Of a stretch of DNA of 64,000 nucleotides, positions 8,726-31,285 are shown in pieces; position 1 is the first letter of the stretch; every line of letters starts with the position of its first letter. The translations under genes and the position numbers were made by a program. This stretch comes from Astropecten irregularis (lineage: Eukaryota; Echinodermata; Asteroidea; Paxillosida; Astropectinidae), in contig OZ020250.1 in assembly GCA_963971285.1 (NCBI GenBank), positions 10,772,499 through 10,836,498 on the forward strand. The letters are read 5' to 3'. The notes beneath the pieces are model-generated. The model had not been told where the DNA came from. It saw only the letters and a program-made list of their open reading frames with translations, and made no database searches.

Positions 8726-8755
8726 AGAGTAAAAAACTTCTAAAATAATACTTAA

Positions 8756-9062: not shown

Positions 9063-9078
9063 GGCTTTTTAATTATTA

Positions 9079-11000: not shown

Positions 11001-12088
11001 GGAAAACATCAGTAATTCAGATTAAAAAGGTAAAACGTCTCTACATGACTTCATCATCGAAAAGCACAATAGAAATCGAGAGAAAAAAGTTTCACATGTT
11101 AGCTTGCTTACATACATAGAAACTGTAGCAATTGTAGAAAATTGAGGTACCCCTACAGTAAATTCCAATCACAGGAACAACTGCTGCTGGCTGAAAACTC
11201 TACTCAGGGTGTTGTTGAGGCTGTGGATACAAACCGGATGTTTCCTGCTTCTGGAGAGGTAGTGAAAAAAGAGACAGTAGAAATAGTAATGGTGGCCAAA
11301 ACCTAAACGCATAACATAATTTTAAATAGCTGAAAGTTAATTAAAAGTATTACTTTAATTGTTTCATGCCTTTACAGAAATTAAGGTAGTAAAAAACTAA
11401 ACGGGGTCGTAGATGAATGGTGAAGCCAAAAAGGTAACTTCACCTGACTACGTGACGATAGAAACCGGAAGAAAAAGTTTCACAGGTTATCTTGCTACAT
11501 ACCTAGAAACTGTAGCAATTGTAGACAATTGAGGTATCCCTACAGGCACAACTGCTGGTGGCAGAAAACATCTGCTCAAGGGGTTGTTGAGGCTGTTGTG
11601 GTCACAAGCGGGTGTTTCATGCTTCTGGAGAGGTGGTGAATAAAGAGACAGTCAAAAAAGTAAAGGGGGCCAACAACCAAAACGTAAACAGAATTCCAAA
11701 AAGCCAAACATTATTCAAAGCATTACAGCGAATGTGTCATGATTTTGCAGAAATAAAGGTAGTAAACAACTAACATAGACGAATGGTTGAGAAGCCAAAC
11801 AAGTAAAATGTCTCTACCTTACTTTATCGAAAATCATGATAGAACTCGGGCAGAACATTTCACAGGTTATCTTGCAAACATACCTAGAAATTGTAAACAA
11901 TGAGAAGGAGTCGCATAATGCGTACAGTAAATTTCAACTGCTGCTGGCTGAAAACTCTACTCAGGGTGTTGTAGAGGCTGTGGATACAAACCGGATGTTT
12001 CCTGCTTCTGGAGAGGTAGTGAAAAAAGAGAATCGAAATAGTAATGGTTGCCACAACCAAAACACCAAACGGAATTCCAAATTAATTA

Positions 12089-14083
12089 GGTGTTCGGGTT
12101 CAAGCCGAACACCTATTGTTATTGTTCGAGTTTTTGGCTTTTCCATGTTCAACGGAAAAGGTATTATTTTTGTTCTGATTTTTTTTCTTTCTTGTTCTTC
12201 TTCTTCTTTTTCTTGTCGTTTGAGTTACCATAGCCTTTGGTCATTTTTAAACAGCCGATTTTGACCAAACTTGGTTTGAAGGAAGTCCATATAGGTTAGT
12301 TGTTTCCCGAAACTTTTCGTCATTATGACGTCATCAGGTGTCATGTGACAAGAGATTTGAATTTAATAATCAAAATCTTTAAAAATCAACAAAAAATCAA
12401 CGGTTTGAGATATTAAAGTTAATTCTTTCACCAAAAGTGATTGTTAGGCAGGGTCTTTCTTTATGACACATTACTTGACCTCTGTGACCTCTACTTCCTT
12501 TCAAACAGGAAGTAGCTCCCTATTTAAAAGTGGTAAGAGCTAGGATCATGATTCTTTCACCAAAAGTAAATGTTAGGCAAGGTCTTTCATTGTAACACAT
12601 TACTTGACCTCTGTGACCTCTACTTCCGGTCAAACAGGAAGTAGCTCCTCATTTAAAAGTGGTAAGAGCTATGATCATGATTCTTTCACCAATCGACAAT
12701 GTTAGGCAAGGTTTTTCATTTGTGACACATTGCTTGACCTCTGTGACCTCTACATCCGGTCAAACAGGAAGTAGCTCCTCATTTAAATGTTGCAAGAGCT
12801 ATGATCATGATTCTTTCACCACTTTAGACAATTAGGCAAGGTCTCTCATTTGTGACACATTGCTTGACCTCTGTGACCTCTACTTCCGGTCAAACAGGAA
12901 GCATCTCCTGATTTAAAAGTGGTAAGAGCTAGGATCATGATTCTTTCGCCAAAAGTAAATGTTAGGCAAGGTCTTTCCCTGTGACACAAACATGACCAAG
13001 TCAAGTGACTTCTGATTAAAGGTACACACTTCAAAAGTATAAAACATGAGATCTTAATCAACTGTCTTTGTGTGTATAAGGTTATGAAATTTTTTTCAAT
13101 AAAAGCGGAAACGGAAAAGTCTTGTGTTCTGTTTTCAACAGACACAATCTCTAGTTTTTTTGGTTTTTTTTCCTTTTTTTTTTTTTTTCTTCCCACACTT
13201 GTCAGCAGGACTTCTTGGTGACAGGTACAAGATATTTACATGAAACTTAGTGGGAACTTTGGTCATGATGTCAAGTTGTATTTAAAAGAATGACGTCATG
13301 ATTATTGTATTAGGCCCTATGTATTGTATTCAGCGCATTTGAACATATTCATGGAAAATGCGCTATATAAATGCTTTATTATTATTATTATTATTATGTC
13401 ATCGGGTATCAAATAACACGCGTTTATAGGAAAAACTTTGGTGGTCTATAACTTGAGAATCACATGACCTACAATTTTGATATTGACATATGTTACTCAT
13501 CACGTAAATGTCAACAATTAATATATTTCGTGTTGTGTACTGAAAATAACTCAAAAACGGAAGGATTTGGGCACATAAAACATAGAGGGTTAAAAGATAG
13601 AGATCTTGGGCTTTCAGAAAAAATAAACGATGACGTCATGCGGGCTATATAGCGCCCTCTACGGTTGACATGTATGTGAAGTTTGACATCTGTGACGTCA
13701 TTCAACCGGAAGTTATACTCTTTTAAAGGGAAAATGACATAATTATTCAAATACTGTTTACTCAGTAATAACATGACGTGCATCAGTGAAAACTGCAAAA
13801 TATTTACATCGTACACATTCAATGACTTCTGTAAATGTTCAGTTACTTGTGATGAACTAACCGGTTATTGTTATTGTCCAGACAATGTTAAACATATTTA
13901 AAGGTGGCGCAATTTTCTATACTCTATCAGTCAGTGTACAAATACAGCAATCAGCATGATCAGTATTTTGTTCAGTCACACAGTTTAAGTGTACATTGTA
14001 TTTCAATATGGCATTATATGATCACATACGTTCCAACATATGTTCACATAACAGTTCCACTACAAAATGAGACCCCGAACACC
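12089..14083. mobile_element. Hairpin-ended element inserted in the 370-bp array
   Basis: The left end is a perfect 25-bp hairpin (GGTGTTCGGGTTC...CCGAACACC, 12089-12113). The right end is CCCCGAACACC at 14073-14083, so the termini are inverted repeats of ~10 bp. It contains a tandem-core element (12138-13160), a LINE/SINE-type 3' tail at 13310-13397 (GCGCTATATAAATGC then ATT repeats), and otherwise non-coding DNA. No clean target duplication was seen. Confidence 0.5.
12138..13160 (-). mobile_element. Tandem-core element, copy E1
   Basis: On the minus strand it starts ACTAGAGATTGTGTCTGTTG (near 13155) and passes a CTTTTCCG box. It has about 4.5 tandem units of ~129 bp (12421-12960), each with GTGAAAGAATCATGATC and GACCGGAAGTAGAGGTCACA. 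It then has a block with GATGACGTCATAATGACG, a GAAGAAGAAG tract, AAAATCAGAACAAAAATAAT, and the hairpin CTTTTCCGTTG...CATGGAAAAG (12160-12138). Same architecture as 29455-31115. No protein is encoded, so it is non-autonomous. Confidence 0.65.
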
Positions 14084-15005
14084 AAGTGGTTGTTCCCACA
14101 ACCACAATGTCTAGTTAAAAGCATTACTGTGGATGTTTCATGCTTTTACAGAAATAATAATGATACTTTAAGTAATGTAGGTTGGACCACCATTTCCCAG
14201 TTCGACTATCGTTTTTTTCAATACTGGACCTTGTCAACACCGGTTACCTTGGGAATACACCATGTTGTGATCACAACAGGCCTACACTTAATTCGAATCA
14301 CAGGAACAAACTGCTGGTGGCGGAAAGCAAAAAAATAAGGTCTCGCTGGGGCTGTTGTGGTCACAGCCGGGTGTTTCATGCTTCTGGAGATGTAGTGAAA
14401 ATAGAGACATCCGAAATAGTAAAACCAAAATGCCAAACAGAATTCCAAATAGCCGGCAATTTATTAAAAGCATTACTATGGATGTTTACAGAAATAATGC
14501 TATTAAACAACTAACTGGGTCAAAGTTAAAACCATTAAAGAACTCAGGAGAAAAAAGTTTCACTGGTTAAGTTCAGGTTATCTTCCAAACATACCTAGAA
14601 ATTGTACACACTTGAGAGGAGTCTCACATTCCTTAATACAGTAAATGCCAATCATGGGAACAATTGCTGCTTCTCTTTGGCGTTTTCGTTTTGCCCCCCC
14701 CCCCCCCCCCCCTTACTATTTCAACTTGGATTTGTCACTACCTCCAGAAGCATGAAACATCCAGTTGTGACCATAACAACCTCAACATCACCTTGAGTAG
14801 ATTTCTGCATTTTCTGGGTATACAGGTCATTTTATCAAGTATTGATCAAATGCATTATACACAACTCACAGACGGTATGCTTTACAGCTGTGCATGGTGG
14901 GCATTTGCAGGCTAGTTCAGTCAGGTTCATAGGGCAAGGTGAAGTGTTCGACCACCAGGACAGCATGGGGTTTGTTGCCAGGAAGACTGAACTGGCTCAT
15001 AGCAG

Positions 15006-15341
15006 AATTCCTTAAAGAGGATCTTCAACACTCAACAAACCTCGCTTTATTTGTTAGAACTATAATCATTAAATTACTTTCATTAAATGAATAGCTCATG
15101 ACGTCATAGTACGGAGCCTTTTCATGAAATGTCTGCTGCCCCCATTGACGAAATTCAGACAGTTTCAATTTTGGGTTAGCTTGCGGGTTGAGCATGTGGA
15201 GAGAAAAATCATCAAAAAGACTCTCTTTCTGTGTTCAGTGTGAGATAAATTTTTTTTTTCTCATGTCAAGTAATTTAATGATTATAGTTCTAACAAATAA
15301 AGCGAGGTTTGTTGAGTGTTGAAGATCCTCTTTAAGGGAAT
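15006..15341. mobile_element. Foldback MITE with ~70-bp inverted repeats
   Basis: 15006-15078 (CTTAAAGAGGATCTTCAACA...) is repeated as its reverse complement at 15269-15341 with nearly perfect match. The ~190-bp loop is non-coding and includes CATGACGTCATAG. No transposase. The family is not identified. Confidence 0.75.
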
Positions 15342-15352
15342 CATCCAAGTAG

Positions 15353-15434
15353 GTCAGGGATTGTGAAATCTTGGACCATATGCAGGGTCAAAAGCTAAGG
15401 TCAGGGATTGTGAAATCTGGGACCATATATATGC
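15353..15434 (+). repeat. Short tandem duplication (~47-bp unit)
   Basis: GGTCAGGGATTGTGAAATCT and GGACCATAT...GCAGGGT occur twice in a row, with a small difference between the units. Confidence 0.7.
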
Positions 15435-15439
15435 AGGGT

Positions 15440-17860
15440 TCAGGTACAAGTTGCATTCACTTTCGTCACAGCTTTGTTCATGCAACGTGGGCCCTTTTCT
15501 ACTGGAACAAAATTTCATTTCTACTGGAACAAAATTTTTTTCATGAATCCTTTCATGAATTAAGTTTCACAATTTCGGCAATTGACGACTGTATGCTGTG
15601 GTTTTGTCATTTTACTTCGCCGATCCCGTGTCCGGCCCCGTTGCACTTGCAGTTATACACGTATTCCTTTTCGACAGAATTTTGCGTCATCTGACTGCAA
15701 TTTCATTTTCCATGGACGATTGCTTGGTTGTTCTTTTCGGGAAATTGTCCATACTCATAGGCTTCCATCGCCTGAGGCTACCATAGGCGGGTCGTGTCAT
15801 GTAGCAGTTACACATCCATCCACCTTGAATTGACTTTACATTGTCCGATCAATGCCTTGTGCACGTCAAAAAGTCTGCTCCGCCGCTACGCCAGCGCGCT
15901 GAACCACTGCAGCGGGTCCAGTGGTGGGCAGACAGGCCAGGTCTTTGATGTTGCCAATTATGCGTGGTCCTCCGCAACCCGTCACTGGTCTACCCAGGCG
16001 AGATTTCCCGAGCACAAGTGGACGTACAAGCTCTAGCCAATAAAGCTAAGTTGATTCTAAATTTCATTCGTGTTCTTATCCAATACAACCTCAGGTGTCC
16101 TTCTGGATTCACTATGGTTTCCAGTCAGCACTGTCAATAGCACCTAAGTTGTAGAGGAAATTCCCAGTAGGATATGCAGTTCAACCCAGAGTTGTGAATC
16201 TACTGTAGTTATCTACCCAATACAGTGACAGTAAACGGCTTATCTTAGACCTTATCTAAGGTACGTCCTTAGATTGGTCAAGAACTTTCTCCATAACAAT
16301 GAGTTAAGGGTACAGTTGATTTGTAACATACCCAAACAGAGGTTTTCACGGCTTTGAGTATAATCTTAAGGCTATTAAGATGGCATTGGTGGAAACGTGC
16401 AGTTGACATGTTTCCGCCTGATGTGGTGTATTTATCCAGGTTAGTCAAACAATGACCACAAACAGTTTTGATCTTGAGGTAAGATTCTCTGTGTTATACG
16501 AGGGATTGAGTTATTTTCGCTATTCGCTATTTTCGTGTGACCCAGATGTCCGATTCAGCTCGGATTTTCACAGGTTTGTTGTTTCATGTACATGACACAC
16601 AAAGTTTGAGTGCTGCTCGGTGACCTTCACCAATCATGTATTAATTATACAGTATGAGACATGCACACTGCACTCCTTCTTAGCGAATGGTGGATACCTG
16701 TGCAAGTTAAATTTACTTGTCGATAGTTGCCCAGTGCAGCAACGAGGCTAATTGTGGTCATGTGGTCGAGTTGGGCAATGATAGGGCTCGGGGTTCAGGG
16801 TCGTTAGAGTCCAGGAAGAGCTCCACAAGGAAGGATCTGAGAACAGTCGACTTTAGTTCTCAAATCGTTTGCACGCAAAGTGGTTTATTGATGACCAATC
16901 AGTTGCACGTGTGACAGCCCATGTAGGCATTGGAACCCTGAACTCCAGGAGGTAGCCCTAAGTATATCTGCCTGACAGCTAGGTTTGTAAACGGAAGGGA
17001 CAAACACAACTGGGTTTTATATACCCTAGAGTTTTCAAGCATATGGCGAGTACATTACGGCTGCAGGGACTTTGGTTGCCCATGCAGGTATTCAAGCATC
17101 ATATAATGGCCGAACCTACTCCCCAATGGTTAAAATCCAGGGAAAGCTGTACGACAAGCATGTGTCCAACCTAGACACTGGTCGATATATCTCACAGGGT
17201 GGGGCCAATGTTCACTTTATATACAACATCACTTGACCCAAAATACTGACAATTGGGGCAAGACTTCTATTACGTCATCGAGTTTGGGATGACAAAGTTT
17301 TCTTGTCTCTTACAGATCATATTCACCAATGGTATTTGGGTTGCTGGCGTGGATGGGAATCGCCAGAACTGAGGGAGTTGGCAGCGCAACTTCCAATTGT
17401 GATACTGGAAGCAAGGCCAAGAATACTATGTACGGCTGTGCTCAGGAGTTTCCTAACGGTGGTCGGATTGGGCAAGACAGCAAACAAATGCAGAATCATT
17501 GATAGTTGTTTATAAGTAACCAAAATTAAGTCAAACTTGCAAGCCGTAATTCCCAGGGCAACAGTTACTAAAGTGCATGGTAGCATCCATCTTAGGCACA
17601 TAACAATGGCTGGAATCGATGATCACATTAGTTAACCACAGGGCAAGTTCACTCTTGCTCGAAGGCTCAAACGAAGGCTTCCAAAACCAATCAAATTGGA
17701 AAAGCCAGTGCCCTCATCTGTTGTCAAGGATAGATTGTACTGATAAGGTAGCACAGTTATAATACAGACACATACACCTATCCGATCCACAGCTGAAAGT
17801 TTAGAACCCATTGCCTGTATATTACGAGCTCTCTCAAAGGCGAAAAGAGGCTATAATTCG
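15440..17860. other. No supported gene; old repeat remnants
   Basis: Short open frames here have no recognisable motif. 16500-16650 weakly resembles the interior of the T2-like MITE at 23694-24043 (GTGACCCAGATG, ACAGGTTTGT). I see no splice-supported exon. A CAATAAAG string near 16038 could be a polyadenylation signal but has no coding partner. Confidence 0.4.
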
Positions 17861-17869
17861 GCATACATA

Positions 17870-18540
17870 GCCTCAGATCAAGGGGACAAGTGCCAGATAG
17901 TCTGGTAAAAGACATGGTATAAAGGTGGAAATCAGATTTGGCACAGGATGTGTATGTTGAGGATACTTTGGGAAATGGGTTATCAGTCTCTAATGCTGTG
18001 GGGGTTATAGGGTCGATAATTGCGTGAGGGCAGCCCAGTCTGGGGTGATACTACATTGCATGGATCAGACCTACGTTTCTCATCCTAAATGGGTTTTTTT
18101 TTTACGTAGCCGGCGAGTAGTAGTGCCACTCTATGCAAATTCAAGGGTGTACTCTGACAATTGCATGGGCCATGAATCAGTTATTTTCGTATTCAAGAGT
18201 AAGTGAAGTTGTCCTCGAGGCTTTGGCCCCATTATTTTGTTACAGATGTTAAGTGTCATTGGCTTGCATAGCCTAAGATCAAAGGGCACGTACCCGCCAC
18301 TTCCCAAACGGGAGTGCCAGATTATAATGTGAAGGATACTTTGGAAGAGATGTTATCAGTCCCTTCACCTGTTGGTTTGTCAGGTCAATAATTGTATGAG
18401 GGGCAGCCCAGTCTAGGGTGATGCTACATTGCATGCATCAGACCTACGTTCTCATCCTATATGGTCGGATTATTTTTCCTTACCCGACGAGTGGTAATGC
18501 CACTCTAAGCAAATTCAAGGAAGTACTCTGATAATATTTA
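17870..18540 (+). repeat. Direct repeat pair, ~280 bp each
   Basis: 17870-18165 and 18245-18540 share GGCAGCCCAGTCT(G/A)GGGTGAT, ACTACATTGCATG(G/C)ATCAGA and GTGCCACTCT-like blocks in order, at moderate identity. They may belong to the tyrosine-recombinase element that follows, because such elements have complex split direct repeats, but this is not shown. Confidence 0.6.
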
Positions 18541-18839
18541 TTGCTTGGTGCATGACATTTTGGGAACCAGACGGTATAAGGCCGGCCATATTGTGCTTGC
18601 AGCATTGAGTGTTTTGCCTACAGTGTAGAGCGTTCTAATGAGGGAATACATAATTCGCACTGTGTCCAGTTTATGCAAACTTACTTGCAGGCTCATCAGG
18701 AATACATATGTTTAATTTCTAATTATTCGTCAGATCGTATGCTGGGGTGTTATACAGTCTTACTGTGTTAATGGTATTATAGTTTAATACTGTATTGAAT
18801 TGTCTAAATGCCGTTGTATCTGTTAAAACATTCCCAGTG

Positions 18840-20790
18840 TTGTCATGGAGTCCCAAAGGGACGTGAATATTTCTAATTATTCGGTCAGATGGTATGTCAT
18901 AATACTTGTATTATTGTATTACTCAATAATTAAAAGGAGTTGTATCTTGTTCAAGCATTGCCCTTGTTGTTATGGAATGTTGACATGTTAAATGGTTTAT
19001 GGTTAAAAGGCAAATCCAGAGTTTGACAATGGTATCAGGGGTCGATTTCACGAAGCCCTACGATCGATCGTAACTCGAGATACGAAGGATAACACATCGT
19101 ATCCTTCGACTTCTACATAGGGCTTTAATGCATCATAATATTCCTACGATTGATAGTAAGTTACGATGAGTTTGGTGAAATCGACCCCTGGTCTGGGGGG
19201 TATGGAGTCTTGGTTACACTGTATGGTGTATGGTCCCAGCTGGTTCTACTTGTCCCTGATGAGGTCTAATTCTCAGGTGGGGTGTTCAAGAACTTGAATG
19301 CAGTGAAAAAGATCCGAAAAAAGGGTATGAACAGCGGTGAATCAGCATTCACTGGGTCAGCGGGCAGGATTCCTTTCGGATGGGTGCCGCTTCCACCGCA
19401 TTTGCGTTGGGCGTGCCGGTGTCAAAGATCAAGCTTTTGGGGCGCTGGCAATCCAATGCGGTCTTTCGCTACATTCGTCCCTTCCCGCCTGTTCTACCAT
19501 AACCTGTAATTGTACCGGGTCAAATTCCTTGTTTACTTTTCTTCGCAGGGGTGCATGAGGTTTGGGTAGTTGGTGATTCCATCGTGCGTAGATCAAGCCA
19601 GGATTTGAATTTACCCGCTTTGGTACATTGGAACGGGCAAGGTGGCCCCCGACTTGGTGACATTCGTGGTCTGCTTCGAGATTATGCAGGTCCTGACCCA
19701 TGCCTACTCATTTTGCATTTGGGTACCAATGATTTCATGGCGCATGACCTTTTCACAATGCGTCAACTCATTACCTCAAGTCTAGATTGTTGTAGGGAAC
19801 GGTTTCCTTAGGCCATTATAGTTTGGTCTGACATCCTCCCCAGGATGTTTTACTTTGGGGCAACATCCCAAAAAAAAAAGGAAAGGGTCCGAAAAGCGGT
19901 CAATCGGTGGGCCAGAGGACAGTGTAGACGGCTGGGGGCCAGGGTTCTGCAACACCCCCAATTTCGTTGATCTGATGCTACCCTGCATAGTTTTGATGGG
20001 GTACACCTTTCCAATTAAGGGTTGTCTTTGATCAGGGCTAACCTTCACAATTGCATTGTGGCCCTGCTGTAGCTGCGGTACTCTGTGGGTTTGTTGTAAT
20101 TTTCTTTGGGCGCGCTTCTCACGTGTGGCAATTTGTGATGGGAATATTACAGCAATCTTTCACTTCGGTGCCGCAGTTTGGTCAAATTGACAGGGCATAC
20201 ACTAATTTATTCCTCGGCTACTTAAGGTTGTTAAGTGTTCTAAAAGTGCCGAGATTTCCCTTGGACTAATCCCGACCGCAGCTCCCAGGGGGACGCGAAC
20301 ACTAAATTGAATAGTTATGGTATATGCCGGGTGATCTAAATAATGTGTACATGGTTTTATCCAATTTGTGTTTAAAAGAATTTGTATCTTGTAAAATATC
20401 CCATTGTTATATCAAATGGAATGTTGAAGTGTTAAATAGTTTCTGGTTTTAAGTCAAACCAGAGTTTGACAATGGTACCAGGTCTGGGGTACAGAGTCTT
20501 GGGTACTCTGTACGGTGTATTGTCCCAGCTGGTTTTACCTGAGGTCTAAGGTACCTCAGGTAGTGTGTTAATAATGGTGTTATTCGTATGTGTGTAAATC
20601 GGTATGCCCAAGGTGTTGGTATTCTGGTACCAGGTCTGTGGAACAGCGTCTTAGATACGCTGTTGTCCCAGCTGGTTTTACCTGAGGTCTAAGGTATCTC
20701 AGGTGGTGTGTTAATTATGTGCTATTCGTGCTATGTTAAAATCGGTATGCCCATGGTTTGGTATTCCGGTAGTTGTGTTTTTCAAGCACT
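18840..20790 (+). mobile_element. Ngaro-like tyrosine-recombinase retroelement fossil with SGNH hydrolase
   Basis: 19366-19508 encodes the end of a tyrosine recombinase: FRMGAASTAF, then LLGRWQSNAVFRYIR with the catalytic-type Tyr. Immediately after, 19551-19811 encodes the start of an SGNH/GDSL hydrolase: block I VVGDSIVRRS, block II-like Gly in NGQGG, block III HLGTNDF. A DGVHLS-like block V lies further on (near 19995-20015). Flanking direct repeats (about 18930-19280 and 20365-20560, and two ~160-bp units at 20475-20770) fit the split direct repeats of Ngaro elements, some of which are known to carry such a hydrolase. The element is a broken fossil with several breaks. Reverse transcriptase is not seen. 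Confidence 0.6.
19036..19190. mobile_element. 155-bp TIR MITE inside the Ngaro-like repeat
   Basis: The ends are CAGGGGTCGATTTCAC and its exact reverse complement. The interior holds nested palindromic blocks around ACGATCGATCGT. Comparison with the related repeat at 20465-20500 shows where it entered (GGTA(T/C)...GGTCTGGGG continues on both sides). No clear target duplication. Confidence 0.7.
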
Positions 20791-21009
20791 AAAATAAATG
20801 CTAGGAGCTGTGGCCATAAGCATACTTGCTGACGTGTAGGGTGACTTATATTGTGTGTTTGAGTATAATGTACGTATAACAAAAAACGCAACGAGATTTA
20901 ATTTCAGATTTGTGAAGATTGTGTTAGCTTTACAGCAAAGTAGTATCACGTTAAAGCCACATTTCTCCTCTTTCCAATGAAATGTTTTTTATTCATACAT
21001 GGTCATGGA

Positions 21010-22245
21010 TATGAGTATTCCGTCCGTTCCGACATTGGAAATGTCGAAACAGCTAATAATAATAAAAATCAGAACAAAAACAAAACCTGTTCCGATATCG
21101 GAAATGTCGGAACAGCTAGCTAGACAGGTTACAAACAACAAGATGTAACCAAGCTTTTACAAAAAGAATCATTGCCATAGCATTTGTCGTTCTCCAGATA
21201 TGCTGCTAACAATAAAATCAGCCTTTATGATGACGTTATGATGACATCATGTTAAATTTTGAGGCAGCATGCATGATGTTACAAAGCTTTTGCAAAAAGA
21301 ATCATTACCGTAGCACTCACCGTTCTCGAGATATGCTGCTAACGAAAAATCTGCATTTTTAATGACGTCATGATGACGGTCAATTTTGTGACAGCATGCA
21401 CAACTACATGATGATACAAAGCATTTCCAAAAAGAATCATTTCCGTAGCATTTATCGTTCTCGAGATATGCTGGTCACAAAATTTGCTAATTAAATATAT
21501 TCAAATGACTGTCACGTGGCTAATTAATTATTCATTTTAACAAACTCAGCCTTTTCAGAAACTTCAGCTTATAAGCTTTCATAAGATACCTCATAAAGCT
21601 GATAAGAAGATTAGAAAAGATTAGGATTAAACAAACTTACTACACTTAAGCTATGGAAGGAAGCCGATAAAGAATAATAATAAAAACTAGAACGAAAACT
21701 AAACCTGTTCCGACATTGGAGGGACAGCTAATCAGAACAAAAACAATACCTTTTCTGACATCGAAAATGTTCGAACAGCAAACTAGACATTTTTCGTGGT
21801 CGGACACGGAGCTGTTCCAACTTATTTAATCAGCTTTTTTAAGCTCTGATGACGTCGCGCTCATTTTGAAATCAGCATGCTATCTAGAGGATCTAACAAA
21901 GGTTTTGAAAAAAGAATCCGTACCATAGCATTTTTCATTTTCGAGATATGCGGCAAAAAAAAAAAATCAGCCTTTTGGATGACATCATGATGACGTCACT
22001 GTCAATTCCATGGCAGCATTCTCATGTACATGATGTAATAAAGCTATTACAACAAGAATCTTTGCCATAGCATTATTCGCCTTTTTGATGACGTCATGGT
22101 CATTCTCATAGTGCACAACTACATGGTGTAGCAAAGCTTTTGCAAAAAGAATCATGTCTGTAGCATTTGCCGTTCTCGAGATTATGCTGCGAAAAAAATT
22201 TACTAATTAAAATATTCAAATTAGCTGTCACGTGCTTAGAATTTA
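21010..22245. mobile_element. Tandem-core, hairpin-module element(s), copy E4
   Basis: There are two hairpins of the GTTCCGACAT...ATGTCGGAAC type, at about 21026-21051 and 21087-21115, joined by AAAAATCAGAACAAAAACAA. Three tandem units of ~135 bp follow (near 21140-21480; AAAAAGAATCATT, GTTCTCGAGATATGCTG, ATGACGTCATGATGACG). A second hairpin-module pair lies at 21705-21785 and a further three units at 21880-22200. It ends in the AATTAAATATTCAAAT...TCACGTG block that also occurs at 61150-61215. No protein. It looks like two related elements side by side. Confidence 0.55.
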
Positions 22246-22569
22246 AGTCATAATAATGTCATCACTAAAACATTATTGGAGTAGCACAGACATCACACCT
22301 ACCAATTTTCATGACGATCAGACATTCTTTACAATATGGAATAAAATTCAGCTTTTTTATGACATCATAAATTACATCATAAATGACATCACAGTTATTT
22401 TCACAGCCGCATACACATCTTCAGGATCTAATGAAGCTTTATGTCCGTCAGAACATATTTCGGAAAGTGTTAAAACACCAATTTCAGTTATTTGCCATAA
22501 TCTCAATTGGTTTTACAAGTAATTATGCTACTCTGGCGACAACTTTTGATTATTGCGGAGACACCATGT

Positions 22570-22625
22570 ATAAACTCTCCTGAGGACAGCCAGAGTACAC
22601 TGGCCGGAACGTCGAGATCCAACTT
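22570..22625 (+). ncRNA. Hammerhead-ribozyme-like motif (weak)
   Basis: CCTGAGGA, then a stem CAGCCAG...CTGGCCG, then GAACGTC. CTGANGA and GAA match the hammerhead core order seen in Penelope-like element termini, but the usual third A after GAA is missing. Function is doubtful. Confidence 0.25.
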
Positions 22626-22905
22626 CTCACTGGTTCTTTTCCGAACCATAAAGAGAATATACATGGTGTTTCCGCAAACCTTTCCTTATTACGTGACTTC
22701 CACCATGCAAAGCTTCAAATCCTAACTATTGATTAGTTATAGCTAGGTGCATTTTTCAACACAAAGTTTACTCACCGCATCATGTAGCTTCACATTTGTG
22801 TGGATAATCGATGCTGCTGATCATGGTGTTCTCTACACTTTGCCTTCCTCTAGTGTTTTGGATATTCCTTGCTGAACATTGTTCAATTGGCTCTGATAGA
22901 AAGTT

Positions 22906-23247
22906 GTGCGTCAACGTTGGCCATTTTTGTGTTCAGAGCCCTTGTGTGACCATTGGAATCCAAACAGTCGCCATACAGAGGTGCCTGTCATGCGAAGAGG
23001 GAGGACCGTCCAGCTTGCTATCCCGATAGCAAGAATTTACAGACCATGCGAATCCATTGTAGAATTCTCGAATATTGAATTATTAAAGGTGGCACTGAAG
23101 GAACGGAGCTTTGGGCTTGGTTTCATTAAGGGTGATTACATCAAAGTAATGCTGATTGATATGCACGTCTTTGCGCGAACGTTCGATTCCCCATTGATCC
23201 CCCTGCTGTTGTCAGATGATGGGTCAGAATGTTCAACTGAGGATTGA
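22906..23247 (+). CDS. Unidentified ORF, possible exon or gene remnant
   Basis: An open frame of 113 codons. From about residue 28 the sequence looks protein-like (PVMRRGRTVQLAIPIARIYR, LKVALKERSFGLGFIKGDYI) and it ends in an acidic tail, SDDGSECSTED, before a stop. I do not recognise a family. The first ~27 residues may be upstream non-coding sequence, and a splice acceptor could lie near 22970 (CCAAACAG). It lies about 1.2 kb beyond the stop codon of the minus-strand membrane-protein gene, on the opposite strand. It could be an unrelated gene's last exon or an eroded mobile-element ORF. Confidence 0.3.
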   Translation: MRQRWPFLCSEPLCDHWNPNSRHTEVPVMRRGRTVQLAIPIARIYRPCESIVEFSNIELLKVALKERSFGLGFIKGDYIKVMLIDMHVFARTFDSPLIPLLLSDDGSECSTED

Positions 23248-23693
23248 CAGCTTCCAACGAGAAAGCTAGAAGTTCAGGAATTTTCCGCCGATCCTGCGGA
23301 TCTACGTAGTCTCATATGTATACATGTACTTCCCAATGCTGGGAGGCGAACAGACAAGACACAAAAATAAACAGCTGGAACGATGGCTTGGGCGTAGTTT
23401 ATATAAGAAACTCCTTTGTACAAAAATAACTTACTCGACAAAAGAAGCAGGTGCTTAAGCGCCGAAGTGCTAAAGTAGAATAGTATGCACCCTGACACAA
23501 GCTTAGAAGAACAAGCACTGCAATCGAGTCAAGCACTTCCCTTCTTCATCTATTCTTCCTATTAGGTTATGAATGGAATGTCTGTTCACGAGTCGCCGAG
23601 GGTGTCATATCCAGGGGCTGTTTTTGCATGTCATGACTGCCATGCAACAATTTAATAAATTTATGAATTCTTTCTTTTTACACCTGTGGCCAT

Positions 23694-24043
23694 TTAAAGG
23701 GAGGGTACAGAATTGGTAAGACAAAATACACTTCATGATCACAGATTCACATAAAACTTACACAGTATAATGGTGATGATAGCAGAAATGCCATATTCGT
23801 TGAGAAATAAATGAAACTATTTTCCGATTGGAATAAATCGCTTCGAAGCGTTTAATTCATTCGTTGAAATGTGTACAGTTCTCTGTACACGGGTTTACAC
23901 TATTTTCTCGTGACCCAGATGGCTGATTGACCTGAAACTTCTACAGGTTTGTCAGTTAATAAGGTATATGATAGATTACATAATGTGCTTTCACTGTCAG
24001 CAACGGGTTTGTCGCAAAAACCAGTTCTGTACCATCCCTTTAA
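23694..24043. mobile_element. T2/Kolobok-like MITE, second family
   Basis: TTAAAGGGAGGGTACAGAAT at the left is mirrored at the right by CAGTTCTGTACCATCCCTTTAA, giving ~24-bp inverted repeats with TTAA at both outer ends. The end matches the TTAAAGGRR consensus known for Xenopus T2 MITEs. It is 350 bp, non-coding, with small internal palindromes (CGCTTCGAAGCG). It lies 377 bp past the stop codon of the host gene, possibly in its 3' UTR. Confidence 0.75.
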
Positions 24044-24419
24044 CTTTGGATGTTTTAATCATTACCAAAAAGTATTATTTCGATGGAACAATATATAACG
24101 GGTGTTTTCGTATCATACCAAATATTAATGTCTGAAACAATTTGCTCTGAAAAGGGAATCGAAATTGGCCAAAAAAATCTCGATTCAGAATGGGAACTAC
24201 ATGTTCGAACCATTTAAGATTGATTTAAAAACATTGTGACCGCTCTTAATGAACGGGGATTGAAATGAACTCTGATTTAATTCAACTAAACTATGAAACA
24301 AAATTTCAATCGCGCATTTCGCTTAACCACGCTTTCGGAATTTCAGACAAGAACTATTTTATCAACTAATTTCCACTAAACATCTAAAATCTTGAGAATA
24401 TGATTGGTAATGAGTTTTG

Positions 24420-24891
24420 TCATGACTGTGATTCCCTGTCATGTGACAGATCGACCTGAAAATCCCACCGCACCTGGAAATTTCCATTACTGCTTTGTTT
24501 ATTCCCAAGGGTAAAGTTTTCAGTAGCCACAAAGTCTATCATCTCTGTGACGTCATTAAAGCTTACCGACTTTCTTTTTAGACTTCGTTCCATGAAGAAC
24601 ATTTCATAGTCGGTGGTGGAGGCACCCTGTAGAATGTCTGGTAAGCCTCCTATGTGAGCCCCTCCATCAATCAATCTGGGGGGCTCAATGGACTCGAAGT
24701 CTGATAGGGACGAGGCCCTCGGGAGTTTTCCACCATCGCTACTTTCGCCCTCACTTTCACTAATACTAATATTTGCAAGATCGATAAGGATTCCAGCACG
24801 GATTGACGTAAGACGCCGAACGTAGCTATCCATCTGCATCTGGCCTGGCCTGAGTCCCGATTCATCGTTCCTGGTAAATTTAGCAGATCGT
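24420..24891 (-). CDS. Host gene terminal exon: cytoplasmic tail of a membrane protein
   Basis: The exon begins after a pyrimidine-rich acceptor (TATATTTTTAG at 24902-24892). One base completes an Arg codon from the previous exon, and then 156 codons run to TGA at 24422-24420. The open frame continues upstream to an ATG at 24971, but that part (FSRNYRKLPCN...) is intron by the phase and acceptor evidence. The tail is hydrophilic, with a Ser/Glu acidic run (SISESEGESSDGG), Ser-Leu-Ser-rich RASSLSDFESIEP and a basic LKRKSVSFNDVTEMIDF. KSVSF fits the RVxF docking consensus of protein phosphatase 1 and RKS a basophilic kinase site; both are inference. No catalytic domain. No AATAAA is obvious just downstream. 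Confidence 0.7.
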
Positions 24892-25141
24892 CTAAAAATA
24901 TACGATAGAAATTGATAAAAAAAAGTGTTACATGGAAGTTTTCTATAATTTCGTGAAAAGGAAAATGCCATTATACATGACGAAGAAATTTTTCTGTGAG
25001 AATAAGAACTTAAGGGCGTTTTGTACAGCTGAAAGTTACATAATAATTTTCTTCAAATCTATACAGACAGCATATTCCCTGTAAAGGTGCATAAGGTTAT
25101 ATGGCAAGCCAATTGCCCAATAATTTAATGAAGTGTTCATT

Positions 25142-27365
25142 AAACAGTGTGTCTATCACGATAAACACGTTTTTTCACCGATAAACACTGTTTTTCAACT
25201 GATAATCACTGTTTTCAACTGATAAACACTGTTTTCAACCGATAAACAATGTTTTAAAAAAAAAAAAATCTGTTTATAACTTGATAAACCGAGCTTTTCT
25301 CAAAAACTTTGTCTATTGCCAATAAACATAGTTATTCGCCAATAAATACAGTATTTCGAGATAAACCTTGTTTATCAAGTGATAAACATAGTTTTCTCGA
25401 AAAACAGAGTTTATCAGTGTTTATTGTCATCAAGTAATAAACAGTTTTTCTAAAAAAACAGAGTGATAAACAGTGCTTAAACAAAGTGACTAAGACCCCG
25501 TTCCCACTAGATCCACCAATTGGGGGATCTGATCCACCTTTTGCCAAATTGCCTGATCAGATCCCCCAATTGGTGGATCAAGCGTGTAGTGGGGACGCAA
25601 ACCGTTATAAGGTGGATCAGGATCTGATCCACCTTTCTTGATCCACCTCCAGAGTAGGATACAGATCCCCCAATTGGTGGATCAGATCCGGCAATTGGAT
25701 TATCACGATAAGTGGGAACGCAAAAGGTGGATCTGATCCGGCAATTTTACCTGTCAATATCCGGCCTGTACACGAGTGGCGCGAAAATGTTGCGGTTTCG
25801 TGAAAGAAGACTTCAGCCATGTACATGTAGATTATGTGACAATCAGCAACGGGCTTGACATACACTATAAACAACAACTAAACTACTGTAAAATCTGTAG
25901 TGTGTGCATCATGCATGTAGCTACACATTTATTAAAATCATGGAGGAAGGAAATCGTACAAGTAGACACGCATTTCATTTGAGATTTTGTTCGTTTTTTG
26001 CATTTTGCGAGCTTACTTTGATCGACTGCCTTGGAAAACACAAGGTATTTCACCCAACTGCTGCCCGAAAGTAAACAGGGCGGATCGAACCAATTTCAGG
26101 CCAATTTGGGGGGTGACAGAAAAGTAAAATAGAACATTATATTTATTGGAATCAATTATAATACCCATAAAATAAAAAGAGAACGGAGCAAAATGATTTC
26201 ATAGATTATGTTAGTGTGATTTACCAGAGTCTTATATCATGAAAGAAAGGGGATAATATTTTAGTTGCCGATTGAATTATTTTATGGTTTATCTACTCCC
26301 CCTGCGTAGAATGGATTGGTCCAAAATGGCTGTGCAACCACGTGCTAGATTTTGTAATATTCTCCGATGTTTTGAGTTGATAAAAAATGTCTTTTTATCA
26401 TCATAATCATTGAAAATGAAATTTATATTTCGTGTGCTTTGTCAATTTGTTATTTTAAAGAATAAACACGCCCATTCGAACTTAAGTTCGACCCCAATAA
26501 AATCCTGAAACGAACGTCCAGATCGGCACAGTGCATGCATTTTCACAAGGTATAACGTGAAATTTGTGTGTCTCCATCCAACAAATAATTATGTTTCGGT
26601 GATCTTTGTGACGGAAAATAACTCGAAATACATCATTTATCATTCATTTTAAAGCACTAAAACATGCTGGGGTACACAAATATGACAAATATTCAATAAT
26701 TTGTACATTATTCTTGAACTAAACGATCGCTAAAATGGTAAACATGTGAAGAGCCGTCACCCCCGGCCCGTTACTGAGCGACGATCTAGTACTTTCGTTT
26801 CACCTTCGTCAAAATGTCAGAATTAACCCCACAAAAATGGCCTTTAGAACCTTCCCCGATATTTCATCAAAAATAAAACTTTGTCTGCATTAATTCGTGG
26901 TGATATTTTAACAGAAGTTTATGCAAGGATAAGGCCATCTTAGCTCGAAAAACTTGATCAAATTTTGGCACGCTGTAACTGACGACGTTGTAGGAATGAT
27001 CTTTACGCTCTCCGATCTGTTACACACAGTTTGATTCAGCGGGCCGCGGGACAGACATAACATTCGGGCGGGCATTCACGTGGCCGATCGCCCATGAGTC
27101 TTGCTTTTGAACACGCTGATCATGCCTACCCAGCATGGAAAGCAGAACGCGCGCTCTCCCTGTCAACTCTGACCTTTTAAGACTCGACACTTCCGCTTAA
27201 AAAGGAGGATCAAGCTCGAGTGGGAACGCGACTTGCGGTTTTGTTGTGGGTAGAGAACGATCACACAAAATGCTGGATCTTGATCCACCTTTCCCCAAAA
27301 CAAGTGGGAACGCGGTCAAACATTGTTTATCCAGTGATAAACAGTGTTTATCAGGGAAAATCCCC
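25142..27365. repeat. GATAAAC/GTTTATC palindromic repeat, copy 1 (split)
   Basis: 25142-25493 and 27318-27365 consist of many short units pairing GATAAACA with TGTTTATC, giving potential cruciforms such as GATAAACAGTGTTTATC. A 1.8-kb TIR transposon (25494-27317) interrupts it. A second copy is at 35765-35945, and its edge ATTATTGGCCATTTGGC matches the left flank here (near 25105-25130) in inverted orientation. Confidence 0.65.
25494..27317. mobile_element. Non-autonomous 1.8-kb TIR DNA transposon with subterminal repeats
   Basis: The ends are GACCCCGTTCCCACT (25494) and AGTGGGAACGCGGTC (to 27317), complementary with one mismatch. Next to both ends are repeats of GATCCACCTTT / GGTGGATCAGATC, at least eight in the left 260 bp and one or two on the right. 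Such subterminal arrays are typical transposase-binding regions. Only short open frames are inside and none is transposase-like. The insertion point is inside the GATAAAC repeat. Flanks CTAA and AAAC leave at most a 2-bp AA duplication. Confidence 0.7.
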
Positions 27366-27663
27366 TCCACAGATGTGTGGTAGGGGTCTATGAACGAATA
27401 CTTGCCTGTAGAGCCACTACTTATGCATATTTCCCTAGACTATCAGGTATTGACGCTAAGAATTGATACAAAAGCGCCCCCTACTTCAGAAAACTCATGA
27501 AGCAACAGCTTTATAATAGCAAGAAGCAACTTATCACGAACCCGCCAGGGGAATTCATGTCAGGTTGCAACAGCGCCCGTTGCACTAACATGCGCAGAAG
27601 GAAATAACATGGATAGTAAAGGCCTGTGTAATGACATATTTATATTATATTTATTGGCCTTGA

Positions 27664-27763
27664 GGGAGATACCACATATATTTTCCAAACTAGTCTCATA
27701 TTGGCCCAAGTCAAAGATGAGGGCAATATGGGTCTAGTGAGGGAAATATATGTGGTATCTCCC
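27664..27763. repeat. 100-bp hairpin
   Basis: GGGAGATACCACATATATTT is followed by CTAGTCTCATATTGGCCC, and both return as reverse complement up to 27763, with a small loop near 27715. Probably a tiny foldback element. Confidence 0.7.
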
Positions 27764-27879
27764 GAAAGTAACGGCAGGTTCAACTCTTTCTGGTGCATGG
27801 GAATAGGAACAAGAAACGCGAAGTTGAACCATAAATATGGGAAGAATAAAACAAAAATAAAATAATTGTCCGCTATCTA

Positions 27880-29310
27880 TGGTTTCACCTCAATCAACGT
27901 GAAGTTACGCGTTTAAGTTAAGTTACGTTGAATGCGTTCCGTAAGGCAGACACCTCCTGGTTCCCATTGGATATGGCATGCCTCCGTCGTAAGGTGGTGA
28001 AGGGCTCGAACAGGAGCCTTGAAAACATGGCCAGCACGCTGAAAAGGTCCCAAGCCTGAGCATCGGGGGTACGACACAGACGTCCCCCTGAGCAACAATT
28101 GGAGAGCCCGATTATCCAACACTGAGGACCCGAGGGCCTCTGAGAACACCTGCTATGGTCGAACGATGACTCCTAATCATGGAGGCCACGTGGTTGCTTT
28201 CGAACAGGTAGGCTATACCAGAAAATTTGCAACCTGCACTACAGAAGCATTTAGGGGATGCGGAGATCAGATTCAGCACCATTTGGGAAGGGTGAGGAAT
28301 AAGCTATCGTAGATTTTCATGGTCGATGCCCTGCGGCTCCAGACTGCAACAAACGCAGCTCGCTGTGGAAGGCTAACTGCATGAAGGGGATGCTTGACAA
28401 CACCCAGCACGTTAGGTAAAGATCCTGCTGAGCCGGGTGAGTGAAAAAACCTGAGCTCAGCTGGAGCAGAATGTCCGCTCAATGCAGAAAAAAATACCGG
28501 TCAATGCATTAGGGGGCTGGGCAGCCTGGGAATCCAGGACTAGCAGGGCCAGAATGGAAGCTATGAGGAGGACTTTACAATCCTGTTCTAGCTTGGTCAC
28601 CACGCAAGGGATGAGGGAAAGGGCAGAAGGCATAAGCCAGCAGCCTGTCCCTCCACATCACCAGCGCTTGCATCCGACATGCCCGGGGGTAGGGGACACT
28701 CATGATAGACCAGCAGCCGCTGGTAGCCCTGAGCGCAAATAGATCGACATGGGGCCGATCTAATAGTCGTAAGAAAGTCAAGATAATCTGCGGGTGCAGA
28801 GACCACTCTGTCGGCCGGATACACTCACCTGAGAGTGCATTGGCAATGACGTTCTCCTCTCCCAGCTGGGGAGCAGCTGAAAGTGCGTACACCGATGGAA
28901 GATGGTTCATGTGGGTGCACATGGCTGGGCAGACCATGTCTCCCCTCTATGGCGGTCGATGTAAGACACCACGGTTGTGATGTCGCGTCAGTCGGGACAG
29001 ATCAACCCGTAAGATAGGTTCAGAACAGCCGGAAAGCATTGGAGACTGCCAACATCTCAAGCACATTGGAATGACTTGAGCGATGTTCTGGGCCACATAC
29101 TGGCCCAATACTTGGCGTGGGTGAACGGTGGCCCCCAAGCCAGAAAGTGCCATGACTGTCGCGACAGAAAGAGATAATTGAGGCCTGCGAAAAGGTGCGG
29201 CCCGACATAATGTTGGGGACGTCCACCAAACATCGAAGGTGCGGTAACGGCCAAGGCGTGACCGGCATGTGATGGCTCATGGGTTGAGGCCTCAACTGGT
29301 ATTAAAAAGG
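27880..29310 (-). mobile_element. DIRS-type retroelement fossil 2
   Basis: On the minus strand there are RNase H-like remnants (about 29290-28940). The DIRS-typical segment RPTEWSLHPQ, then RPHVDLFALRA (about 28820-28700) follows, and then eroded tyrosine-recombinase-region sequence toward 27880. It is related in sequence to the fossil at 49110-60050. Clearly old and heavily broken, with many breaks. Gag and most of reverse transcriptase are absent, and the 5' side ends at a G/C homopolymer patch. Confidence 0.65.
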
Positions 29311-29420
29311 AAGAACAGGGCCTGGGGGGGGGGGGGCACATGCCACCCCCCCCCCCCCCCCCCCCCACAAATTCTGAGTGTCCCCCCCAGGTGCCCCCCA
29401 CAAAAATTGTGGGTAGGAAA
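29310..29420. repeat. Poly-G / poly-C low-complexity patch
   Basis: A G run (about 29323-29336) is followed by a C run (about 29345-29366), and then CCCCCCCAGGTGCCCCCCAC. It resembles the G/C-rich interior of the hAT-like MITEs at 36232 and 56378 and may be a fragment of one. Confidence 0.5.
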
Positions 29421-29454
29421 AAAGTTTAAGTGTTATCTGTACGGTATGATAGAT

Positions 29455-30108
29455 ATAAAGAAAACTAGAGTTTATGGCTGTTTGAAACAGCACATAAGGC
29501 TTTTCCGCATGTGATATATAAATTGCTTGTCAATCAGATCGAATTGTGTCATTAGAAAGACCTTCCCTTACATTGACATTTGGCGAAAGAATCATGATTG
29601 TAGCTTTTACCACTTTTAAATGACAAGCTACTTCCTGTTTGACCGGAAGTAGAGGTCACAGAGGTCAAGCAATGTGTCACAAAGAAAGATCTTGCCTAAC
29701 ATTGATATTTAGTGAAAGATTCGTGATTGTAGCTCTAAAAACTTTTAAATGAGGAGCAACTTCCGGTTTGACCGGAAGTAGAGGTCACCGAGGTCAATTA
29801 ATGTGTCACAAAGAAAGACCCTGCCTAACAATAATTTTTGTTGAAAGAATCAAGTTAATATCTCAAACCGTTGATTTTTTGTTGATTTTTAAAGATTTTG
29901 ATTATTAAATTCAAATCGCTGGTCACGTGACACCTAATGACGTCATAATGACGTTATTTACGCGGGCACATCTATGCTATATGGACTTCCTTCATACCAA
30001 GTTTAGTTGAGATCAGCCATTTAAAAGTGACCAAAGTGGCCCGTAGAATGCCCCTGTACAAAGTCTATACGAAATTTGGCTGAAGAAGAGGAAGAAGAAG
30101 AAACTAGA
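29455..30108 (+). mobile_element. Tandem-core element, copy E2
   Basis: Starts AACTAGAGTTTATGGCTGTT with a CTTTTCCG box at 29501. About 2.3 core units of ~129 bp follow (GACCGGAAGTAGAGGTCAC twice). The ATGACGTCATAATGACG block is near 29939, and a GAAGAAGAGGAAGAAGAAG tract ends at about 30101, where copy E3 begins directly. The terminal hairpin module is missing in this copy. Confidence 0.6.
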
Positions 30109-31115
30109 GATTCTATGTCTGTCTGCAACAGAGCATAGAGCTTTTCCGCTCCATGTTTTTAAAATTAATTTATGAATCCATGCAACATTAGATCTACATA
30201 TGTGTCACAAAGAAAGACCTTGCCGAACATTGTTGTTTGGTGAAAGAATCATGATCCTAGCTCTTACCACTTTTAAATGAGGAACTACTTCCTGATTGAC
30301 CGGAAGTAGAGGTCACAGAGGTCAAACAATATGTCACAAAGATAAGACCTTGCCTAACATTGATATTTGGTGAAAGAATCATGATCCTAGCTCTTACCAC
30401 TTTTAAATGTGGAGCTACTTCCTGTTTGACCGGAAGTAGAGGTCACAGAGGTCAAGCAATGTGTCAAAAAGAAAGACCCTCCTAACTTTGATATTTGGTG
30501 AAAGAATCATGATCCTAGCTCTTGCCACTTTTAAATGAGGAGCTACTTCCTGTTCGACCGGAAGTAGAGGTCACAGAGGTCAAATATTGTGTCAAAAAGA
30601 AAGACCCTCCCTAACATTGATGTTTGGTGAAAGAATCATGATCCTAGCTCTTCCCACTTTTAAATGAGGAGCTACTTCCTGTTTGACCGGAAGTAGAGGT
30701 CACAGAGGTCAAGCAATGTGTCACAAAGAAAGACCTAGCCTAACATTGATATTTGGTGAAAGAATGAACTTAATATCTCAATCGGTTGATTTGTTGTTGA
30801 TTTTTGAAGATTTTAATTATTAAATTCAAATAGGTTGTCACATGACACCTGATGACGTCATCATGACGTAATTCACGCGGGCACATCTATGCCGTATGTA
30901 CTATGCCTATACAAACTTTGAACTATGTGAAATAAAGTTTAATGGAAAAAAAGTCCCGTAAAATAAAACGTGTGCAAAGTCTATGGGCCGTGGGAAAAAA
31001 AAGAAGAAGAAGAAAAAAAAAAATCAGAACAAACAGTATAGCTTTTCCGCAACTATGCGGAAAAGCTAAAAAAACAGAACAAAAGAAAAGGGTTTTCGCT
31101 GACACGAAAAAACCC
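30102..31115 (+). mobile_element. Tandem-core element, copy E3 with two terminal hairpin modules
   Basis: Begins ACTAGAGATTCTATGTCTGT, with a CTTTTCCG box near 30141. About 4.3 core units of ~129 bp follow (GTGAAAGAATCATGATC near 30240, 30370, 30497, 30628). Then come the GATGACGTCATCATGACG block, a GAAGAAGAAG tract and ATCAGAACAAACAGTAT. Hairpin 31040-31067 (AGCTTTTCCGC...GCGGAAAAGCT) is next, then AACAGAACAAAAGAAAA and a second hairpin 31090-31115 (GGGTTTTCG...CGAAAAAACCC). No coding capacity. Confidence 0.65.
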
Positions 31116-31285
31116 AATAAAAACAACTTAATAGCTTCTGCTGTTTCAAATGATACTTTTGACTTTCAGCAAATGTTCCCGAGTCCTTAAAACCCTAAAG
31201 TGAAGAAATCTGTGCAACATTTCAGTGTAAAAATACAATTTTCTTACGCGCTTACGGTTGCAAACAGCCCGTCTGTCATTTTGTC

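Follow-up and report, generated by a model that had tools for sequence, protein, structure and literature searches.

What kind of element ends in a short hairpin set behind an A-rich spacer, and how do such hairpins, unlike one another in sequence, come to stand in stacks? This question is raised by a stretch of the Astropecten irregularis genome (contig OZ020250.1; 64,000 nucleotides (nt), referred to below as the window), in which spacer-hairpin units stand in pairs at four places. Here we report an analysis of these units in the window and in the containing genome, which was searched over 475.7 Mb in 168 contigs. The units are one end, the palindromic subterminal inverted repeat (subTIR), of Helentrons, which are rolling-circle transposons equipped with an endonuclease, or of their gene-less HINE relatives, and nested insertion of younger copies into the purine tracts of older ones very probably makes the heterologous hairpin stacks, in last-in-first-out order. 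We describe the ends and anatomy of these elements, the nested order of their termini, their uninterrupted counterparts, the relative age of inner and outer copies, a coding partner, and insertion after AA.

In the window, hairpins follow a CAGAACAAAA-like spacer at 12160-12138 and 12115-12087 on the minus strand, and at 31039-31068, 31090-31115, 21026-21050, 21087-21115, 21705-21727 and 21750-21778 on the plus strand. They are paired at each of the four places (12087-12160, minus; 21026-21117, 21705-21778 and 31039-31115, plus) where the initial annotation had recognized a common build, and that build was found at all four. Six of the eight hairpins, all but those at 21705 and 21750, were folded as DNA and gave z-scores of -2.4 to -7.5, with at most 6 of 200 shuffles folding equally well; the 21705 hairpin has a degenerate look. 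Counts confined to the window are no better than those of shuffled sequence: a loose scan for spacer plus hairpin gave 7 matches versus 1-6 across 20 shuffles, which is not beyond chance, and the spacer core with at most one mismatch occurs 12 times against 8.5 expected, which is too weak to decide. Taken by themselves, such counts are what would be seen if the hairpins were chance palindromes within A-rich DNA. That explanation, to which we give a vanishingly small probability, is refuted by hundreds of genome-wide candidates, by changes on both arms, and by a terminal region shared with the coding loci described below.

Genome searches with units of the window as queries yielded these candidates. 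The query 31020-31120 had 64 matches within 40 loci scored, of 518 candidates, and the query 21019-21140 had 138 matches within 40 loci scored, of 617 candidates; because of this homology, the units are repeats. Across ten hairpin classes, hand-chosen and anchored at TTC/GAA, 89 of 103 cells pair and 17 are changed on both sides, while none of 2,000 shuffles equalled this pairing. The arms therefore change together, and self-complementarity is kept despite sequence change, both as had been claimed from the window alone; the arms co-vary because the hairpin of each subfamily matches its own opposite subTIR. The spacer, described initially as conserved, is indeed part of the unit, but it varies by subfamily. 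Likewise, the units do sit at element ends, each closing a Helentron/HINE-type element, but the positions first given for them covered only one end of each element. The opposite ends of the window elements lie at 14114 and 13154 (minus), at 29465 and 30104 (plus), and probably at 21120 and 21783.

Read on the strand of the spacer, an element begins with CTAG, a hairpin and a subTIR, continues through a body with tandem repeats of about 130 bp to a (G)AAGAAG purine tract, and closes with the spacer CAGAACAAA, the palindromic subTIR hairpin and CTAA or CCAA. The arm of the terminal hairpin repeats the short subTIR near CTAG. By the Helentron convention, the 5' end is the hairpin unit and the 3' end is CTAG, with the coding frame reversed; the CTAG end is called the left end here. 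The hairpin ends 1-4 nt before the terminus, and the subTIR near CTAG starts 28-39 nt in at 57 of the 58 left ends that were scanned; the remaining one is a double call on locus L018. At four window left ends, stems start 7-9 nt inside CTAG, with z-scores of -2.0 to -2.7 that are modest alone. The two bases before CTAG are AA (TT on the other strand) at 54 of the 56 distinct left ends and TA at 2. The motif GATGACGTCA, with at most one mismatch, is present no more than 450 bases before the first unit at 23 of 32 loci. A GATGACGTCA-like (CRE-like) palindrome precedes the purine tract in several subfamilies and occurs in the window at 12325 (plus), 13640 (minus) and 30850 (plus).

Two nested composites were identified within the window, at 12086-14114 on the minus strand and at 29465-31117 on the plus strand. 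The first consists of an older, interrupted non-autonomous Helentron of type G (12086-14114), with its left end CTAGACATTGTGG.. at 14114 and its hairpin end ..CACCTAA at last base 12086, and of a younger non-autonomous Helentron of type c (12134-13154), with its left end CTAGAGATTGTGTCTGTTG.. at 13154. The left end of the outer element (14075-14114) carries CTAG, a hairpin and then the repeat TTGGTGTTCGG at 14085, which matches its own unit at 12087-12115 (TAGGTGTTCGG...CCGAACACCTA, preceded by the spacer CTCGAACAATAACAA). The inner copy starts in the purine-rich tract of the outer one (13155-13190), holds 4.4 copies of the central repeat of about 130 bp (12422-12988), and ends in its own unit CTTTTCCGTTGAACATGGAAAAG at 12138-12160, preceded by the spacer ATCAGAACAAAAATAATAC. 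In the plus-strand composite, an older non-autonomous element of type b (29465-31117) is interrupted in its purine tract (GAAGAAGAGG.., 30082-30103) by a younger non-autonomous copy of type A (30104-31069), which has a left end CTAGAGATTCTATGTCTG.., 129-bp repeats, a purine tract and its own unit at 31039-31068 (TAGCTTTTCCGC...GCGGAAAAGCTA, 13-bp stem); the hairpin unit at 31090-31115 (GGGTTTTCG...CGAAAAAACCC) is assigned to the outer b element.

The same arrangement recurs elsewhere in the genome, where left ends lie immediately within the purine tract of another, upstream member of the superfamily. The upstream sequence was read at 18 of the 30 unit loci from the 31020-31120 search, and the order of ends was tested in 11 arrays in which left ends and hairpins are equally numerous (nine of the 18 loci and the two of the window; 26 left-end/hairpin pairs), scored by the match between subTIR and hairpin arm. 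The summed match was 286 for the mirrored order and 240 for the parallel order, and 32 of 20,000 within-array permutations reached 286. The mirror was the single best order in 8 of the 11 arrays, including every one of the 7 in which an H, d or G subfamily is present. At L017, for example, left ends H, A and d are followed by hairpin units d, A and H; at L010, left ends H, A and c are followed by units E, A and H, the third hairpin being imperfect and found by eye; and at L018, L019, L022 and L023, left ends H and A are followed by units A and H. In the minus-strand composite of the window, left ends G and c are followed by units E and G, and it is the outer unit TAGGTGTTCGG that the G repeat TTGGTGTTCGG matches. 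Fifteen arrays are complete, that is, were read whole from an outermost left end without tract or unit before it; the units equal the left ends in 11 of them (both in the window, L002, L010, L011, L017, L018, L019, L022, L023 and L025), exceed them in 4 and fall short in none. This mirrored nesting supports the initial suggestion of repeated insertion adjoining the previous terminus.

Unoccupied sites and uninterrupted elements provide counterparts to these arrays. The joined flanks of the outer minus-strand composite match three unoccupied paralogues in the window (11254-11381, 11628-11756 and 14387-14487), which are 74-77% identical, show no target duplication, and have 9-10 bp that are missing from the occupied copy; an unoccupied paralogue of the plus-strand composite site was sought in the window, and none was found. 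The local repeat concerned, at window 11254-14487, has at least four copies, one of which contains the nested Helentron insertion. When the flanks of L018 were joined without the nested A copy, all 40 scored loci (of 1,016 candidates) matched from base 1-3 to at least base 175 of 185, and these loci are uninterrupted H elements. The matches end no more than 1 nt from the CTAA of the unit at 28 of the 40 loci, which fixes the H terminus, and 38 of the 40 are without a second H-type unit.

On the whole, the inner copies are also the younger ones. Over the first 200 nt of each, nested A copies resemble one another more closely than do the H elements around them in 26 of 28 pairs; against the whole H this holds in 27 of 28, and for whole uninterrupted A copies in 10 of 10 pairs. 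Joint transposition of A within H was considered and rejected: several loci share one insertion point, yet the H and A divergences differ. Divergence between whole H copies is 7-15% in 27 of 28 pairs, against 1.3-5.8% between whole A copies in 10 pairs, and separate insertions fit better because the H copies diverge more. For the pair L018/L023, with H 98.0% and A 98.6% identical, joint transposition may still apply.

The tract into which copies insert was examined from the side of the left ends. Twelve straight purines precede 39 of 121 exact A-type left ends, or 26 of 108 without one tandem array on C19; the background in the window outside elements is 75 of 9,877 sites after AA and 51 of 3,485 after AAA, and family membership of the purine tracts was seen only for those that were read. 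Of 20 c-type left ends sampled of 40 listed and judged by eye, a family tail precedes 15, a hairpin unit 2, and unrecognised DNA 3. In the array on C19 (2370143-2381061), thirteen left ends of A type follow one another about 0.77 and 1.03 kb apart; the array is satellite-like and built from Helentron pieces.

No Rep (PF14214) match was found within the window, and the coding partners were found elsewhere in the genome, where a PF14214 search gave 149 matches (150 of 154 candidates scored), many of them inside open frames of more than 3,000 amino acids (aa). An autonomous copy on C15 spans 15,973 bp: behind its left end come a frame of 3,115 aa, repeats of 130 bp, the purine tract and, last, a pair of identical hairpin units. 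Its left end is of A type with unrelated DNA before it, and no further left ends were found in the C15 stretch read. The frame contains PHD, Herpes_teg_N-like, OTU, DUF6570, Helitron_like_N, PIF1 and C-terminal Exo_endo_phos domains; the PHD finger, the Herpes_teg_N-like match and the OTU protease domain lie in the N-terminal part of the Helentron protein (L063 1-3696, minus). PF14214 (E-value 6e-36) and PF05970 (1e-28) match the C15 frame, and both also match the frame of a second coding locus on C1. PF03372 matches positions 1690-1863 of a C-terminal C15 piece 1,883 aa long (2.8e-8) and is weaker on C1 (3.6e-5; 24.1 bits versus a cut-off of 24.5). Motifs in the C15 frame include HTH (HxH) at 1873, GGAGTGKS at 2456 and a candidate Y-x3-Y at 2101. 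The C1 locus is 74.5 and 76.2% identical to C15 in two frame blocks and has three hairpin units; no left end was found within the C1 stretch read. The window element and the coding locus on C15 share 651 bp of terminal homology at 93%, and C15 and C1 share 574 bp at 82%. A Rep/helicase-encoding relative with the same ends, which the initial annotation had suggested looking for, is thereby provided by C15, and C1 shares its terminal region.

A C-terminal endonuclease fused to Rep/helicase marks Helentrons, and the elements were assigned to that class. They combine Rep and PIF1 in one protein, the C-terminal AP endonuclease, palindromic subTIRs, an opposite palindrome, a T-rich target without duplication, and non-autonomous copies that share their ends with a coding copy. 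The initial annotation knew of no described family with this build; this was mistaken, since subTIRs, opposite palindrome, microsatellites and central repeats make up the Helentron/HINE build already described in the available portion of PMC4067079. A canonical Helitron (Helitron1, with 5' TC and insertion at A/T) was rejected, as the ends are TTAG/TTGG.. and CTAG with flanking AA on the strand read. CTAG plus hairpin had been taken for a canonical Helitron end, and this was dropped for a Helentron with reversed frame after the domain scan and the published descriptions; Helitron2 without endonuclease is excluded by the endonuclease domain on the coding frame. Rep-coding elements also stand in same-strand rows on C11 (16.2-16.4 Mb), C14 (10.48-10.65 Mb), C15 (21.49-21.60 Mb) and C20 (6.83-6.90 Mb), with neighbours about 19-51 kb apart, many of them 20-30 kb, and some domain scores identical; these rows look as if they were nested or tandem arrays of autonomous copies.

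Several points weigh against nested insertion as the origin of the stacks or restrict its reach. The mirrored order is tied in L002 and is not the best in L011 and L027, because the subTIRs of the sister subfamilies b, c and A are nearly alike. Nine loci (L003, L006, L013, L015, L020, L024, L026, L029 and L030) were left out of the order test because their left ends and hairpins differ in number, a unit stands between bodies, or the array is incomplete, and stacks are over-represented because loci were picked by similarity to a two-unit query. The search with joined L018 flanks scored the best matches first, so the frequency of H interruption is not deducible from it, and it was blind to extra units of other classes. 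The age pairs were drawn from 8 loci and are non-independent, and the pair L022/L020 runs opposite in both counts. Among 17 A-type left ends sampled of 40 listed, 9 follow a family tail and 8 other DNA, and self-targeting is accordingly strong but not exclusive; the c- and A-type samples moreover lean toward the tract because the queries carried an A-/G-rich flank, a bias of which the exact-pattern count of A-type left ends is free. Hairpin units outnumber left ends in the C15 copy (1 left end, 2 hairpins), L006 (1 and 2), L020 (3 and 5) and L009 (1 and 9). Finally, the hairpin end CCAA is joined directly to CTAG five times, at L013, L027 (twice), L003 and L026, and these junctions are non-nested.

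Surplus hairpins and head-to-tail junctions are thus partly unexplained by nesting, and three other processes have to be weighed against it. Termination bypass or end capture, in which read-through collects further hairpin ends and the stack represents alternative termini gained by transposition, was raised by the initial annotation and agrees with single-left-end copies that have at least two hairpins (the autonomous C15 copy, L006 and L009), with an extra H-type match at 2 of the 40 uninterrupted H loci scored, and with the end bypass described for Helitrons in the available portion of PMC5148889. As a source of the stacks in general we nevertheless consider it unlikely, for the other 38 H loci show no second H-type unit, and heterologous stacks can do without bypass, since upstream of them the bodies owning the outer hairpins are still present in mirrored order; what stands of the suggestion is that it may explain surplus units in 4 of the 15 complete arrays. 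Tandem duplication or slippage of the hairpin unit without any insertion, which we hold to be about equally improbable overall, would account well for the nine units of L009, where variants are repeated in the same order by tandem duplication of units, for the two consecutive H units of L013, and for I-type loci at which overlapping match runs imply up to about seven like units. Heterologous stacks (A-H, E-A-H and E-G), however, are impossible from one unit, and each class has its own upstream body, so that duplication is already excluded as their source. At L020, the left end of an A element continues into a d-element tail, a join as would be expected from recombination between shared 130-bp repeats, and bypass, duplication or recombination may lie behind the four arrays with surplus hairpins.

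Rolling-circle concatemers, in which tandem copies from a circular intermediate are inserted as a unit, appear somewhat less probable still. The five exact hairpin-end/CTAG junctions and the 13-copy array on C19 are of the form that they would produce, as probably are the I-type loci, and the head-to-tail junctions could be either joined-end concatemers or insertions at the exact terminus. Concatemers, however, would leave a unit between all bodies and make neighbours alike, whereas the nested arrays have none between bodies and their units, from different subfamilies, are stacked at one side. An exact pattern for the A-hairpin/CTAG junction was found at one locus. In the window, two stacked I-type units (21026-21117, plus) are directly followed by a probable left end (CTAG at 21120) of a degenerate I-type element (21120-21779, plus), which has the probable left end CTAGACAGGTTACA, repeats of about 135 bp at 21151-21480, a conserved tail at about 21530-21690 that is common to 3 of the 4 I-type loci read, and units at 21705-21727 and 21750-21778; the next probable left end is CTAG at 21783. 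I-type stacks directly followed by a new left end are probable at 21120 and 21783, and for 16 of the 137 I-type matches outside the window the match extends 6-9 nt beyond the unit, into CTAGACA of the query, as at 21120.

Nested insertion into purine tracts very probably proceeds as follows. New copies insert after AA (TT on the other strand), and the purine tract of the element itself offers A runs beside the end hairpin, in which later copies often land. With each insertion the older hairpin is left outside and that of the newcomer is added inside, building a last-in-first-out stack, and the arms co-vary as each subfamily keeps its own hairpin matched to the subTIR at the other end. Rolling-circle transfer by Rep/helicase and the preference for T runs are taken by analogy from the known family. 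We infer that Rep may recognise the hairpin while the partner repeat near CTAG keeps pace, that the tract may be chosen as such as a landing place because of its A runs, possibly with help from the endonuclease, and that recombination between 130-bp repeats might later remove bodies and leave hairpins. More tentatively, the purine tract could be a self-homing landing pad that draws new copies into old ones, sparing host genes and swapping subfamily ends; we regard this as a possibility with the odds against it. If it were true, an outer hairpin could pair with an inner CTAG end and give mobile composites, and some arrays described elsewhere as tandem helitrons with one end truncated could be nested arrays, with the ends that seem to be lacking stacked at the far side.

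For rolling-circle transposons, which are without target duplications and hard to date, a stack of this kind records in readable form the order of insertion. The arrays also support, in repeated cases, the origin of multiple termini by nested self-insertion, so far proposed from few fungal and maize cases, and they suggest how helitron arrays described as 'truncated tandem' might be read anew. In each subfamily, what Rep may recognise is marked by the co-varying hairpin together with the matching opposite repeat, making end-pairing rules testable.

Apart from these elements, the window contains a 323-bp unit with a tRNA gene that is duplicated in tandem with a 100% match (8755-9385; the two minus-strand tRNAs are at 8827-8899 and 9150-9222). 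It also contains a minus-strand frame of 1,341 aa (51349-55374) with RT, RNase H and integrase domains that is Ty3-like by their order, and a reverse transcriptase fragment at 357-1436.

Among known systems, the Helentrons and HINE/DINE-1 elements are closest. In the available portion of PMC4067079, their single protein likewise unites Rep, helicase and a C-terminal AP endonuclease. One of their palindromic subTIRs lies close to its terminus and the other some tens of bp from the opposite terminus, near which there is also a palindrome; a microsatellite, central tandem repeats and a T-rich target without duplication are further common features. The subTIRs of mite elements lie about 2-4 nt and 38-60 bp from the termini, and the far repeat is a little nearer here. 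One Drosophila Helentron has a minus-orientation frame, and the frame is reversed here too; OTU proteases are found there in accessory frames, whereas here OTU is in the same frame as Rep. That portion of the article mentions Helentron clusters and attributes tandem arrays in other genomes to bypassed termination, but describes no subTIR-hairpin stacks or mirrored nesting. The FoHelis of Fusarium oxysporum, which are of Helitron2 type, resemble our elements, in the available portion of PMC5148889, in the hairpins at both termini of FoHeli1 and FoHeli2, in asymmetric terminal inverted repeats, and in several short 5' termini with one 3' terminus that are attributed to self-insertion; they differ in that no endonuclease was found in the fungal set and that this portion names one nested case and describes neither mirrored multi-subfamily stacks nor a landing tract. 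Maize helitrons, according to the accessible part of PMC3288121, also have multiple 3' termini from nested helitrons, but they are canonical CTAG Helitrons whose internal 3' termini are mostly without intact CTAG. The oyster Cg_HINE and Pearl elements share subTIRs, microsatellite, satellite-like central repeats, palindrome and T-rich target, while the available text of PMC7492417 contains none of the words nested, hairpin and tandem insertion. Among the papers listed on nested Helentrons, and among the best 20 listed both on nested or self-insertion and on landing pads, head-to-tail joins and multiple termini, judged by titles and the starts of abstracts, no description of mirrored multi-subfamily stacks was found. 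Helentrons are thus already known, and multiple termini by self-insertion have been proposed for Fusarium and maize; what is new here is the abundance of the stacks, the replicated evidence for nesting, the built-in landing tract, and the readable last-in-first-out order.

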